The position numbers were made by a program, and so were the translations under genes. DNA of 64,000 nt. Origin: Sulfurovum sp. (GTDB taxonomy: Bacteria; Campylobacterota; Campylobacteria; Campylobacterales; Sulfurovaceae). Location: the NCBI GenBank assembly GCA_026990595.1, contig JALXCZ010000007.1, positions 1 through 64,000 of the forward strand, given 5' to 3'. Of this stretch, positions 1-5,363 are shown piece by piece. Numbering within the stretch: position 1 is the stretch's first letter; each line of letters starts with the position of its first letter. Under the pieces are notes generated by a model. That model had not been told where the DNA came from and ran no database searches. It saw only the letters and a list, made by a program, of their open reading frames with translations.

Positions 1-252
1 TCTGAATAACCTAGACATTCACAATGGGTTTTGCAAATGTAAGATTGTGCAAGAGATTTACAAGTCCTAGCCGTAGCTAAGTCGAAGTAAATATCTTGTG
101 CAAGATTGCGTTTGCAAAGCCCACCCAAAGGGCATCACTAGCTTTCGTATATGCGTCGTTACTCTTTTTTGACTTAGCTAAGGCTAGGACTGCAAAAGAG
201 TGCCTAGCCTAGACAAAAGCTAGAGATGTTGTGAACGCCTAGGTTATTCAGA
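1..252. repeat. MITE-like element with 24-bp terminal inverted repeats
   Basis: The first 24 bases and bases 229-252 are inverted repeats of each other with two mismatches; the tips read TCTGAATAACCTAG and its complement. Inside are three more inverted pairs: 25-57 with 93-123, 63-83 with 171-191 (one mismatch in 21), and 133-145 with 216-228. Some pairs cross one another, so this is not a single hairpin. There is no convincing ORF. It fills most of the gene-free stretch 1-343; the rest (253-343) is AT-rich promoter DNA for the next gene. The size and terminal repeats suggest a non-autonomous mobile element, but no target-site duplication can be judged because the left end is the window edge. 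Confidence 0.55.
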
Positions 253-280: not shown

Positions 281-286
281 TATAAT
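281..286 (+). promoter_or_regulatory. candidate -10 box for the regulator gene at 344
   Basis: TATAAT in an AT-rich stretch 58 bases before the ATG. No -35 box is visible, which is usual for Campylobacterota sigma-70 promoters. The palindrome at 302-318 would lie just downstream of the expected transcription start. Confidence 0.45.
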
Positions 287-301
287 ATTACTATTACAAA
301 A

Positions 302-318
302 TGATTATTTTTTAATCA
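302..318. promoter_or_regulatory. candidate operator, palindrome TGATTA-N5-TAATCA (copy 1)
   Basis: A perfect 6-5-6 dyad 26 bases before the start of the Fis-HTH regulator gene. The same 17-bp dyad recurs at 1761-1777 and 3690-3706 before the two amt genes. The spacing equals that of the classical NtrC site (TGCACC-N5-GGTGCA), and the regulator has an NtrC-type DNA-binding domain, so autoregulation is a reasonable inference. Confidence 0.5.
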
Positions 319-343: not shown

Positions 344-1078
344 ATGGAACAATTTTTCACCAACTCAGAGCAAGTACAAAATATTATTAAAGGGTTTAAT
401 CTTACCAAGACCCTTTTTGTCTCTTCTATTATCATAGGTGAGCCTCATATCGGCAAGAAATCATTAGCAAGATACCTCTTTCCTGAAACACCTTTAGTCT
501 CAGGGGGAAATCAGGAAGAGGTAGTAAAAATGCTAAGTGAAGTTGACGAACTTATCATCACAGATTTTGAAAAACTTAGTAATCAAGAGTCACTCAATTT
601 GGATAACAAGCGTATTATTGCTACAGCAAACTATATAGGCAATCAACAAACCATAGACAATCTTTTTGCTTTTATTTATGCACTTCCGTCACTCAAAGAG
701 CGTGCTGAAGATACAAACTTTATTAAAAAAATGTTCATTAAAGAAGCACAGTCAAATCTTATGCTCAAAACAGTGGATATTCCCATAGAAGAGCTCCCCG
801 TTGACCTAAGAGAGAACAGTAAAAGTCTTAAAAGAACAATCTATCGCTATATGATGAATCATTCCATGAAAGCGGAAGATATACAAGAAGCTATCTACCA
901 TTACATCCTTGAAGAACTCAATGGCAATAATGGCTATAAGGAGCATCTAGGACTTTATGAAAAACCTCTTATTAAAGCCGGTCTAAAAAAGTTCGGTTCC
1001 CAATTGCAGCTTTCACAGGTATTGGGTATTAACAGAAATACACTTAGGAAAAAAATACATGAACACCATATCGATTGA
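344..1078 (+). CDS. NtrC-like Fis-family regulator, no receiver domain, degenerate AAA+ domain
   Basis: Probable DNA-binding regulator of the adjacent ammonium uptake genes. Residues about 30-150 resemble a worn AAA+ domain: the Walker A-like stretch GEPHIGKK has Lys where Ser/Thr is expected, the Walker B-like stretch is LIITDFE, and the GAFTGA loop that touches sigma-54 is missing. The last ~40 residues are a clear Fis-type helix-turn-helix (LGINRNTLRKKI). At 244 aa it is about half the length of NtrC and has no receiver domain. It overlaps the next gene by 20 bases. Without GAFTGA it is unlikely to activate sigma-54 RNA polymerase; a role as a repressor or simple DNA-binding switch is inferred. 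Confidence 0.7.
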   Translation: MEQFFTNSEQVQNIIKGFNLTKTLFVSSIIIGEPHIGKKSLARYLFPETPLVSGGNQEEVVKMLSEVDELIITDFEKLSNQESLNLDNKRIIATANYIGNQQTIDNLFAFIYALPSLKERAEDTNFIKKMFIKEAQSNLMLKTVDIPIEELPVDLRENSKSLKRTIYRYMMNHSMKAEDIQEAIYHYILEELNGNNGYKEHLGLYEKPLIKAGLKKFGSQLQLSQVLGINRNTLRKKIHEHHID

Positions 1079-1763
1079 TTTTCAAAAATTCATAGACTGG
1101 GATAACAGCCCTTTTATACTCTTTAGTGCACAGGGTAAGATACTCTACCTAAACAATACAGCAGAAATACTCTTTGGTTATGTCTCCAAAAAAGAGCTTT
1201 ATGACTTAGCACTAGCCTATGCCCCGAAAAGTTTTGGACATAAGACAACCACCCTTGCACTCAACTACGACTCATTCAGTTTTTATGCTATTACCGTAGG
1301 ATATGAGGATGAAGAGCAGATTTCTATACGTTTTTACAACGCACCGCGTACCAAATCTGCAACACCCATAGAACAAGACAAACTGGTAACTACAGATATC
1401 AACCTTCTGCTTGAAGCAAATATCACACTCTTTAAGACAAAGAACAACAATACTTTAAGACTTTTAGCAGACCCGGATATCCCCTCTTTTAAAATAGATC
1501 AGAACAGATTTTCCAAACTGCTTAGAAAAACCCTGGATACATTCAGATCTTCTGACTCTATTCATATTACACTTAAACTCTTAGTAGGTGAGCATGTCAT
1601 CATTTCAGGCAAAAAAAAGCCTATTGTTCAACTCAGCATTGAAGCAAACGGACGTTACAATGAGAGCGATGAAGAGATACGTACACTGGCAACACAAAGC
1701 CACATTACCCTGCTTCTCAAAGAGAGAACCATTAAATTGGAGATCCCTCTTATTCAAGATTGA
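1059..1763 (+). CDS. PAS-domain protein resembling a degenerate NtrB-type histidine kinase
   Basis: Residues about 10-80 look like a PAS sensor domain (SPFILFSAQGKILYLNN). I see no phosphoacceptor H-box. Residues ~110-234 keep the outline of a HATPase domain: an N-box-like helix (DQNRFSKLLRKTLD) and a G1-like stretch (PIVQLSIEANGR) in which the usual Asp-Gly signature is not kept. It therefore looks like an NtrB relative that has lost catalysis. It overlaps the upstream regulator gene by 20 bases, so the two are surely co-transcribed and may form a protein pair. A signalling role through protein contact is inference. Confidence 0.55.
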   Translation: MNTISIDFQKFIDWDNSPFILFSAQGKILYLNNTAEILFGYVSKKELYDLALAYAPKSFGHKTTTLALNYDSFSFYAITVGYEDEEQISIRFYNAPRTKSATPIEQDKLVTTDINLLLEANITLFKTKNNNTLRLLADPDIPSFKIDQNRFSKLLRKTLDTFRSSDSIHITLKLLVGEHVIISGKKKPIVQLSIEANGRYNESDEEIRTLATQSHITLLLKERTIKLEIPLIQD

Positions 1764-1777
1764 TTAAAAATTAATCA
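1761..1777. promoter_or_regulatory. candidate operator, palindrome TGATTA-N5-TAATCA (copy 2)
   Basis: Perfect 6-5-6 dyad overlapping the stop codon of the PAS gene and centred about 78 bases before the first amt start. Not followed by a T-tract, so it does not read as a terminator. Confidence 0.5.
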
Positions 1778-1846
1778 TGACTCTGATAAAAAGCATCTCT
1801 TTTAGATGTTATTATTTCTTTGAAAATTATTTTAAAGGAAAACAGC

Positions 1847-3154
1847 ATGAAGTTAAAACTTTTCGCTCTACTGGCATCGTTGATGCCGATCGCCGCTATG
1901 GCAGAAGACAAACTCGATACGGGTGACACAGCATGGATGATGATCTCCACTGCACTGGTACTGCTCATGACACCTGCAGGTCTTGCACTGTTCTACGCAG
2001 GTATGACAAGAAGTAAAAATGCATTGAACACTTACGCTATGGTCATGGGTGCGTTTGTGCTTGCTTTTGTGGTATGGATCATTGCCGGATATTCCATTGC
2101 CTTCGGTACCTCGGAAGCAGCCGGAATCCAAAAATTCATTGGTGGATTTGGAAATGTCTTCCTAAACGGTATTAAATGGACTGATCTTAGTGGAACCTAT
2201 CCTACATATGTATTTGTTGCATTTCAAGGTACATTTGCGGCTATTACTGTAGCGATTGCTTCAGGTTCAGTCATCGGACGTATGAAATTCTCAACATGGA
2301 TGGTGATCGTAGCGCTTTGGGGTCTGGTTGTTTATGCACCTATTACACATATGGTATGGGGTGGAGACGGTGCCCTTCTTTTTGATGCAGGTGCACTTGA
2401 CTTTGCCGGTGGTACAGTTGTACATATGAATGGTGGTTTAGCAGGTCTTGTACTTGCCATCCTTATAGGTAAAAGAGCAGGATACCCTAAAGTTGCAATG
2501 CAGCCATTCAGTATTCTCTTTACGGCTGCTGGTGCTGCTATTTTATGGTTTGGTTGGTATGGATTTAATGCTGGTTCAGCATTTGGTGCCAATGCAGTTG
2601 CAGGTGTTGCACTGCTTACTACCACCATTGCCACAGCAGCTGCAGGTCTTACATGGTTGATCGTTGAGTGGATAGTCTATAAGAAACCAACCCTTCTCGG
2701 TATCGCTTCAGGAATTGTTGCAGGACTTGTTGCCATTACACCTGCTGCAGGATTTGTAGGTATCGGTGGTGCATTCATTGTAGGTATCGGTGGATCACTT
2801 ATTGGATTCTTCGGTGTAGTTAAACTGAAGAAAATATTTGGTTATGATGATTCTCTTGATGCATTTGGTATTCACTTCCTAGCTGGTCTCTGGGGTGCAT
2901 TAATGACAGGTGTACTTGCATTGAATGATAAAGATCTTCTTTGGGATGGTCCGATGAAAGCCAGTGGTGACAGAATGGGACAATTCATGGTTCAGGTTGA
3001 GTCAGTAGTTGTTGTTGGTCTATGGACACTCATCGGTACAGTGGTAGTTTATTATGTTGCGTCTGCACTCACAGGTGGAGCAAGAGTAGATGAAGAGACA
3101 GAATATAACGGTCTTGATGAAGCTATACATGGAGAAAAAGGAATTAACATTTAA
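1847..3154 (+). CDS. amtB: ammonium transporter Amt (first copy, with signal peptide)
   Basis: Inner-membrane ammonium channel of the Amt/Mep/Rh family, 435 aa. The twin pore histidines are present at H193 (GTVVHMNGG) and H343 (DAFGIHFLAG). A cleavable signal peptide is evident (LFALLASLMPIAAMA), as in E. coli AmtB, followed by about 11 membrane segments. I start at 1847 because AAAGGAA lies seven bases upstream and the signal peptide begins there; an in-frame ATG at 1820 lacks these. It is followed by a PII gene, the usual partner that plugs the channel under nitrogen sufficiency. The palindrome at 1761-1777 lies just upstream. Confidence 0.95.
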   Translation: MKLKLFALLASLMPIAAMAEDKLDTGDTAWMMISTALVLLMTPAGLALFYAGMTRSKNALNTYAMVMGAFVLAFVVWIIAGYSIAFGTSEAAGIQKFIGGFGNVFLNGIKWTDLSGTYPTYVFVAFQGTFAAITVAIASGSVIGRMKFSTWMVIVALWGLVVYAPITHMVWGGDGALLFDAGALDFAGGTVVHMNGGLAGLVLAILIGKRAGYPKVAMQPFSILFTAAGAAILWFGWYGFNAGSAFGANAVAGVALLTTTIATAAAGLTWLIVEWIVYKKPTLLGIASGIVAGLVAITPAAGFVGIGGAFIVGIGGSLIGFFGVVKLKKIFGYDDSLDAFGIHFLAGLWGALMTGVLALNDKDLLWDGPMKASGDRMGQFMVQVESVVVVGLWTLIGTVVVYYVASALTGGARVDEETEYNGLDEAIHGEKGINI

Positions 3155-3170: not shown

Positions 3171-3639
<469 letters not shown>

Positions 3640-3689: not shown

Positions 3690-3706
3690 TGATTAAAAAT
3701 TAATCA
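3690..3706. promoter_or_regulatory. candidate operator, palindrome TGATTA-N5-TAATCA (copy 3)
   Basis: Same 17-bp dyad as copies 1 and 2. Here the symmetry extends to 10 bp on each side (3687-3709) and a T-run follows, so it could also act as a second terminator. It lies downstream of a stronger terminator and about 128 bases before the second amt start, which favours an operator or upstream activator site. Confidence 0.45.
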
Positions 3707-3825: not shown

Positions 3826-4998
3826 ATGGAAATGAATTATGTGATAGACACATTCTTTGCACTTTTTACCATGACCCTTATTATTTTCATGGTACCCGGT
3901 TTTGCTATGCTAGAAGCAGGATTGGTAAGAACAAAGAATGTTACTTCGGTATTGACAGTCAATGTTATGATCTATGCTGTGGCATCAATGGCCTTTTTAC
4001 TGATAGGATATAAGTACGCTTTTGGAAGTTGGGATCATCAGGACAGCATCAACAAATATGCTTTTTTTCTCTTTCAAATGGCTTTTGTAGGCAAAGTGGT
4101 CAATATAATGAGTGGGGGTGTAAGTGAACGTTCCCGTATTATTCCTCTGGTACTCTTTACTGTTATCGTAGGTGCTTTTCTCTACCCAACCATTGTCAAT
4201 CTGACATGGGGTGCAAACTTTTTGGCAGGTACCGCTTTTGATATTTCTGCCATGCATGATCTTGCGGGCTCGACAGTCATACACTCTACAGGAGGATGGG
4301 CTCTTCTTGCAGCAATACTGATCATGGGTCCAAGACGTGGAAGATACAAAAAAAATGGAGCCATTCAGGTTATTCCGGCTTCCAATATTCCTCTTGTCGT
4401 ACTGGGTGCCTTTCTCCTATGGATAGGATGGTTCGGTTTTAACGGTGGATCAGTCGGAGCTATCTCAAGCAAGGAGAATGCTGATGCCGTTGCACTGACT
4501 ATTATGAATACCAATACAGCCGGACTTGCAGGAGCGATCATCGGCTGGTTGATCACCTATTTCCGCTATAAAAAATTCGATGTGACCATGATCTTGAATG
4601 GTGCGTTGGGCGGATTGGTAGCTATTACAGCAGGTCCTGATCTCTATGATATATATACCCCTATACTCATTGGAGCGATCGGTGGTACCTTGGTTGTCTT
4701 TTTTGTACCGTTTTTCGACAAACTCAGAATGGATGATCCTGTTGGTGCACTTTCAGTGCATTTGGTCAACGGTATTTGGGGGACACTGGCAGTAGGTATC
4801 TTTGCTGATGTCAGTTTTCTGGCACAACTTAAAGGTGTAGTGATGACGGGGGTTATTGTTTTTCCACTCTCATTTGTCATTATCTACAGTATCAACAAAG
4901 TCTTCTCTCTTCGTGCAGAAGATGAAGAGCAGCTCGAAGGAATCGATGCAACCGAGTGTGGTATAGAATCCTATCCTGAATTTAAGCGCAGTATCTAA
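3826..4998 (+). CDS. ammonium transporter Amt (second copy, no signal peptide)
   Basis: Second Amt/Mep/Rh channel, 390 aa, clearly diverged from the first. Pore histidines H153 (STVIHSTGG) and H312 (LSVHLVNG) are present. There is no signal peptide; the first membrane helix begins at about residue 8. AGGAG lies six bases before the ATG. A PII gene follows after 23 bases, so this is a self-contained amt-glnK unit with its own upstream region (3671-3825). The two channels may differ in affinity or in which PII they bind; that is inference. Confidence 0.93.
   Translation: MEMNYVIDTFFALFTMTLIIFMVPGFAMLEAGLVRTKNVTSVLTVNVMIYAVASMAFLLIGYKYAFGSWDHQDSINKYAFFLFQMAFVGKVVNIMSGGVSERSRIIPLVLFTVIVGAFLYPTIVNLTWGANFLAGTAFDISAMHDLAGSTVIHSTGGWALLAAILIMGPRRGRYKKNGAIQVIPASNIPLVVLGAFLLWIGWFGFNGGSVGAISSKENADAVALTIMNTNTAGLAGAIIGWLITYFRYKKFDVTMILNGALGGLVAITAGPDLYDIYTPILIGAIGGTLVVFFVPFFDKLRMDDPVGALSVHLVNGIWGTLAVGIFADVSFLAQLKGVVMTGVIVFPLSFVIIYSINKVFSLRAEDEEQLEGIDATECGIESYPEFKRSI

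Positions 4999-5018: not shown

Positions 5019-5362
<344 letters not shown>

Positions 5363-5363
<1 letters not shown>

Follow-up and report, generated by a model that had tools for sequence, protein, structure and literature searches.

A phosphotransfer-less pair derived from NtrB and NtrC as a probable sigma70-dependent regulator of nitrogen assimilation in Sulfurovum and many other Campylobacterota

Introduction

The NtrC family is best known through the NtrB-NtrC phosphorelay that drives sigma54 promoters, and yet some of its regulators, such as VpsR and FleQ - full-length proteins with their own N-terminal domains, which bind c-di-GMP - are not limited to sigma54 activation. In Rhodobacter capsulatus, NtrC is without the GAFTGA motif and has been reported to activate sigma70 promoters by binding ATP, and not by hydrolysing it (PMC10274813). 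A further departure from the phosphorelay is found in NifL, a PAS-GHKL protein which binds but does not hydrolyse ATP and inhibits NifA by contact, and whose GHKL domain has been reported to interact with GlnK (PMC9866876). For the Campylobacterota, the genome paper of Arcobacter butzleri called it remarkable that NtrC and NtrB homologues are apparently lacking (PMC2147049). Within an open-access subset of the literature we found neither a nitrogen regulator described for this group nor a regulator of the kind presented here, although an earlier description elsewhere is possible.

Here we describe two overlapping genes of Sulfurovum sp., ORF1 and ORF2, which lie in a stretch of 64,000 nucleotides (hereafter the window) from a genome of about 2.05 Mb that is 99.8% complete. 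The pair resembles NtrB/NtrC in the ancestry of both proteins (as judged by profile and fold), in nitrogen-assimilation targets by operator content, in the presence of PII in the same genomes and in a predicted repression of its own promoter; it differs in having no receiver, no H-box or DHp, no GAFTGA and no Walker B glutamate, in a genome without sigma54, and in its operator, TGATTAAWWWTTAATCA. It shares the deleted L1 loop (GAFTGA) and, by prediction, the action on sigma70 promoters with the NtrC of Rhodobacter capsulatus and Caulobacter, but these keep a receiver, a phosphorylation site and a real kinase in NtrB, whereas here both halves of phosphotransfer have been lost. As in NifL-NifA, a PAS and GHKL protein without phosphotransfer is paired with a member of the NtrC family, as known here from genes and models; however, NifA has a GAF domain and a sigma54-type AAA+ domain with GAFTGA, neither of which is found in ORF1, and NifL has two PAS domains and an H domain, and binds ATP/ADP. 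VpsR and FleQ, unlike ORF1, have no PAS-CA partner.

Results

Layout of the locus

The open reading frame list of the window confirms the frames and coordinates given to both genes in an initial annotation made from the sequence alone. ORF1 and ORF2 overlap by 20 bp, and downstream of them lie amt-glnK and then a second amt-glnK unit. The features are as follows.

281..286, + strand: predicted -10 box TATAAT of the pair's own promoter (from sequence)
302..318, no strand: operator TGATTATTTTTTAATCA of the pair's own promoter, predicted autorepression site (from sequence; 3' of the -10 box)
344..1078, + strand: ORF1 ('REG'), 244 aa, shortened AAA+ domain, no receiver, Fis-type HTH (HTH_8 match, fold, NtrC profile)
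1059..1763, + strand: ORF2 ('PAS-CA'), 234 aa, N-terminal PAS and catalytically dead CA (GHKL) domain, no DHp/H-box, obligate partner of ORF1, as read from PAS match, fold and co-occurrence
1761..1777, no strand: operator TGATTAAAAATTAATCA before amt1-glnK1 (same position kept in Sulfurovum and relatives)
1810..1815, + strand: predicted -10 box TATTAT of amt1, 32 nt past the operator (from sequence)
1850..3154 (start about 1850), + strand: amt1, ammonium transporter, predicted target (open reading frame; homologous Amt genes with the operator in other families)
3298..3639, + strand: glnK1, encoding a PII protein; a predicted target that is also predicted to supply the signal input (open reading frame; P-II family match)
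3690..3706, no strand: operator TGATTAAAAATTAATCA before amt2-glnK2 (from sequence)
3826..4998, + strand: amt2, ammonium transporter paralogue, predicted target (open reading frame; operator 5' of amt2 in other families)
5022..5363, + strand: glnK2, second PII protein (open reading frame; P-II family match)

At the contig end, just 5' of the pair's promoter, a MITE-like element of 252 bp occupies window positions 1-252. Its terminal inverted repeats measure 24 bp (1-24/229-252, 92%) and enclose a nested inverted repeat at 63-86/168-191; the window has one copy of the element.

ORF1 is related to NtrC

In a single-sequence domain search, ORF1 matched HTH_8 at 27.6 bits, above the cut-off, with the HTH at about residues 206-240, and gave no other domain and no receiver match; it is the sole HTH_8 protein of this genome. 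The sigma54-activator domain was matched in 14 of 28 members of the ORF1 family. An AlphaFold2 model of ORF1, built from an alignment of related loci (mean pLDDT 89.8), resembles the AAA+ domain of enhancer-binding proteins over residues 3-174 (NtrC1, 1ny6: Z 14.8, rmsd 2.6, 170 aligned). Profile comparison with NtrC by hhalign gave 99.7% at an E of 3.8e-27, the NtrC profile consisting of ten full-length NtrC-type proteins, most of them encoded next to an NtrB-like kinase gene. This alignment starts at NtrC residue 137, just past the receiver, and runs collinearly through the last helix; the GAFTGA block of the L1 loop is deleted, and the C-terminal Fis-type HTH signature, LGINRNTLRKKI, is identical letter for letter in ORF1 and NtrC. 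VpsR and FleQ were distant profile matches in a search of the PDB. Going by sequence and model, ORF1 is an NtrC-derived candidate transcription factor.

The initial annotation had described the Walker A of ORF1 as damaged, and this is where it has to be corrected: the P-loop G-x4-G-K/R is retained in all 60 rows of two alignments (their lineages partly overlap), and the motif reads GK in 71 of 76 genomes and GR in 4, with one not matched. The ordinary NtrC-type proteins compared here have GESGTGKE at Walker A, the lysine being followed by E in 13 of 15 and by S in 2 of 15, so that the absence of Ser/Thr at this place in ORF1 is not damage. Loss is nevertheless real elsewhere, in the missing L1 loop and in the catalytic glutamate of Walker B, which is replaced by F, I, L or V in 60 of the same 60 rows.

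ORF2 carries a CA domain related to that of NtrB

ORF2 gave a weak PAS match (19.8 bits, under the Pfam cut-off; PAS was matched in 12 of 20 members), and a PAS-like fold is predicted at its N-terminus by AlphaFold2, in a model again built from an alignment of related loci (mean pLDDT 84.3); no cofactor of this PAS domain was identified. Residues 109-233 take the fold of a histidine-kinase CA domain, with that of E. coli NtrB (1r62, Z 14.8) and RetS (Z 14.9) tied at the top of the matches. By sequence, no HATPase was found in ORF2, either in Pfam or among PDB sequences, and the match to an NtrB profile is weak (90.9%) and covers the CA region only. The DHp helix pair with its H-box (HExxNPL), which is present in the aligned NtrBs, was seen neither in the sequence of ORF2 nor in the secondary structure of its model. 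Within the CA domain, the N, G1, F and G2 boxes are absent, and neither the invariant N241/N245 of NtrB nor its G1 motif DxGxG is conserved. Taken together, sequence and model mark this CA domain as catalytically dead and derived from NtrB.

With the exception of Walker A, the initial annotation thus read these proteins well. Coordinates, domain search and NtrC alignment bear out its receiver-less, GAFTGA-less ORF1 with an intact Fis-type HTH, placed with its partner before amt-glnK, and the CA fold, the missing boxes and the weak PAS match bear out its ORF2, a PAS protein with a decayed HATPase-like region and no H-box. Its derivation of the pair from NtrBC is upheld by the NtrC profile and the NtrB CA fold, and its claim that phosphotransfer is lost in both partners by the absence of receiver and DHp/H-box. 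It had also proposed structure prediction, which, run on each protein singly, recovered the relation to AAA+ (NtrC1) and to HATPase/CA (NtrB).

The two genes are kept or lost together

We surveyed 250 near-complete genomes of the Campylobacterota class, our own included, taking a clear full-length match as presence and setting aside weak matches to ordinary enhancer-binding or PAS proteins, far weaker than E 1e-40. Both genes occur in 77 genomes and neither in 173, with zero exceptions; here, as in the operator counts below, genomes are counted as independent, which phylogenetically they are not. Among 60 relatives, likewise, ORF1 was found in 52 and ORF2 in exactly those 52. The pair is unlinked in many families, with ORF1 in the order pal-ybgF-slyD-ORF1-fabD-mtnN-ttcA and ORF2 adjoining an rpoD-like gene (the names of the slyD, fabD and rpoD-like neighbours being taken from a reading of the sequences, with no profile check). 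That ORF1 and ORF2 are retained together even when unlinked suggests that they work as partners. A PII protein is present in 77 of the 77 genomes with the pair, which is no more than permissive for an input from GlnK.

Between Sulfurovum orthologues, pairwise dN is about 0.01-0.2 against a dS of about 0.4-2 for both genes (several dS values are saturated), and both are under purifying selection. The survey of orthologues that the initial annotation had called for found the same residues constantly lost in the members examined, and none with normal kinase or AAA+ motifs.

In several families (L033, L036-L040 and L076-L086) the split pair sits in such housekeeping clusters: ORF1 overlaps or follows slyD ahead of fabD-mtnN-ttcA, and ORF2 mostly comes after the rpoD-like gene.

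A probable palindromic operator accompanies the pair

Visual inspection first showed the palindrome TGATTA-N5-TAATCA in front of ORF1 and of each amt gene. Genome-wide there are 7 exact copies, against 0.62 expected from composition and 0 for the reversed control, and all seven are intergenic: three at window positions 302, 1761 and 3690, two at narK/nirA and two at a cytochrome/COX1 cluster. The consensus TGATTAAWWWTTAATCA, or TGATTAA-WWW-TTAATCA, comes from 138 sites, of which those of related genomes are not independent; A/T makes up about 98% or more of its five centre positions, which the search left unconstrained. Matches with one mismatch are mostly scattered in the genome and were not used. 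An FNR-type site, TTGATnnnnATCAA, was considered and rejected, as its spacer is 4 nt and the spacing of the operator differs.

The strict operator was found in 44 of the 77 genomes with the pair versus 2 of the 173 without it (p 2e-25, genomes treated as independent). It is absent from all 23 genomes with a full amt but no pair (0/23), and from all 26 with PII but no pair (0/26), so the presence of nitrogen genes does not account for the association between site and pair. In the two pairless genomes with a strict site (G125 and G143), it precedes genes not recognised as nitrogen genes. In 9 other Sulfurovum genomes, too, the promoter of the pair carries a site close 5' of the start codon.

The 33 of 77 genomes that have the pair without a strict operator include all six of one family (f8; site 0/6), in which the recognition helix is changed to NR[IV]TLRKK; another family (f15) has NRVTLTKKM, yet keeps the site in 6 of 7. 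When the latter is left out, the operator occurs in 1 of 11 NR[IVA]TL-type genomes versus 36 of 58 with NRNTLRKK (p 0.002, not corrected for phylogeny). This is suggestive only, but an altered recognition helix may account for some of the site-less genomes. In one locus (L029) of a family without the strict site, a one-mismatch site lies between amt and ORF1.

Promoter geometry and predicted regulon

In other genomes the operator lies 5' of amt1, amt2, glnK, glnA, narK and nirA, and also of porins and ABC binding proteins, about 70-80 bp typically separating its centre from the start codon; amt, glnK and glnA are the most widespread of these targets. The nirA of our genome is ferredoxin-nitrite-reductase-like, and two operators lie between it and narK. 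A -10 box of the form TAnnnT follows the operator at 31-32 nt in 46 of 72 target promoters: the offsets of 31 and 32 nt hold 29 and 34 occurrences against a background of about 3, and the best -10 boxes fall within a window of 26-34 nt in 53 of 72, compared with a mean of 11.2 and a maximum of 22 in shuffles. If these are the -10 boxes, then the operator would span about -60 to -44, with its centre at -52, which is the place of an activator on a sigma70 promoter. A few genes depart from 31-32 nt, amongst them amt2 of the window, with 28 nt. At the pair's own promoter, the -10 box lies upstream of the operator or, as TATGCT in some other Sulfurovum genomes, abuts it, and for this reason autorepression is predicted.

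No rpoN (Sigma54_DBD) was found in this genome or in most of its genus, and a sigma54 activator is rejected here on that ground. GlnD, too, was not found in this genome.

Two arrangements of paired operators were also observed. Those between narK and nirA (L026 5197 and 5274) are 76-78 bp apart, or about seven helical turns, in several Sulfurovum genomes, the layout recurring in L102, L105 and L111. Elsewhere in our own genome (C31; L027 3714-7413), two operators 52 bp apart lie between the gene of a multihaem cytochrome (Cytochrome_C7/C554) and that of a 203-aa protein without a family match, next to which a COX1-family (haem-copper oxidase-like) protein is encoded. This second arrangement is a possible link to NO or nitrite respiration.

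Discussion

We consider it probable that the pair is a sigma70-dependent regulator of nitrogen assimilation in Sulfurovum and many Campylobacterota, stripped of both phosphotransfer and contact with sigma54. In this mechanism a dimer of ORF1 would bind the palindrome through its Fis-type HTH, a step that the site and gene distributions make very likely. From about 52 bp 5' of the start site it would recruit sigma70 polymerase and so turn on amt, glnK, glnA, narK, nirA and related genes; that it activates rather than represses at these targets is likely from promoter sequence. At its own promoter, with the site on or past the -10 box, it would act as a repressor. The reduced AAA+ domain keeps its P-loop, and would probably bind nucleotide as a conformational signal, with no usual ATP hydrolysis. 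ORF2, for its part, would be a non-kinase sensor or anti-activator whose PAS-CA module contacts ORF1, and we hold control of ORF1 by this contact to be fairly likely; the proposal of the initial annotation, that the pair may work by protein contact alone, would fit. Lastly, the CA domain of ORF2 may take the nitrogen signal from GlnK, the least supported step, to which we give an even chance. Perhaps PII signals by ligand alone, considering that no genome with the pair is without it and that no GlnD was found here. Against the proposed mechanism stands a CA domain without canonical ATP boxes.

Could ORF1 instead mainly repress the nitrogen genes, with ORF2 and GlnK relieving it under nitrogen limitation? 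The operator on or past the -10 box of the pair's own promoter would suit such a role, as would the few genes off the 31-32 nt spacing. However, a repressor's operator is expected over or past the -10 box and needs no rigid spacing, whereas most targets have theirs at a fixed distance 5' of the core promoter, centred at about -52 as for an activator, and we regard general repression as unlikely. It is very unlikely that the palindrome belongs to another transcription factor which merely co-occurs with ORF1 and ORF2 while these do something else. Binding by ORF1 is, indeed, deduced from co-occurrence, and the strict site is missing from over two fifths of the genomes with the pair (33/77). Nevertheless, many Sulfurovum genomes have a site at the promoter of the pair itself, pairless genomes with amt or PII have none, ORF1 is the only HTH_8 protein that this genome has to offer, and a 17-bp palindrome with an A/T-only centre suits a dimer of the Fis/NtrC type.

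A third possibility concerns the signal: the pair may sense redox or NO, the nitrogen genes being part of a wider nitrogen-oxide response. The PAS domain of ORF2, the handling of nitrate and nitrite by narK and nirA, and the two sites between the multihaem cytochrome and the COX1-family cluster (with, in one relative, L208, a site before a homologue) speak for this. Against it, amt, glnK and glnA are the targets that recur most widely, PII accompanies the pair in all 77 genomes and no PAS cofactor was identified; we consider it quite unlikely. The initial annotation had left the choice between a nitrogen and a redox switch, and the predicted regulon of amt, glnK, glnA, narK and nirA favours nitrogen; for redox we found no support beyond that one operator pair before the haem-copper oxidase-like/cytochrome cluster. 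As for a decaying remnant of NtrBC, one could be suspected from the missing receiver, L1 loop, H-box and ATP boxes, but the same losses recur across 77 genomes of many families, under strong purifying selection and alongside strict co-retention and a conserved regulon. The survey already contradicts decay, and we rejected a pseudogene on the grounds of conservation and a dN/dS well below 1; its probability is close to nil.

Returning to the sigma70-dependent regulator that we favour, we tentatively posit, at slightly under even chances, a switch that is class-wide: the sigma54-driving phosphorelay of NtrB and NtrC would have been remodelled, both partners together, into a contact-operated combination of PAS-CA and mini-AAA+ proteins that acts on sigma70 promoters and takes its input directly from unmodified GlnK. 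If true, this phosphate-free switch would fill the apparent absence of NtrBC seen in Arcobacter butzleri. The pair clearly exemplifies how both partners of a two-component system can shed phosphotransfer simultaneously; as the pair itself, its DNA-binding end and its targets have been kept throughout, the step from kinase signalling to signalling by contact becomes testable. For the Campylobacterota of vents and sediments, and for those that oxidise sulfur, it provides a concrete candidate regulator, complete with a partner, an operator and a predicted regulon.
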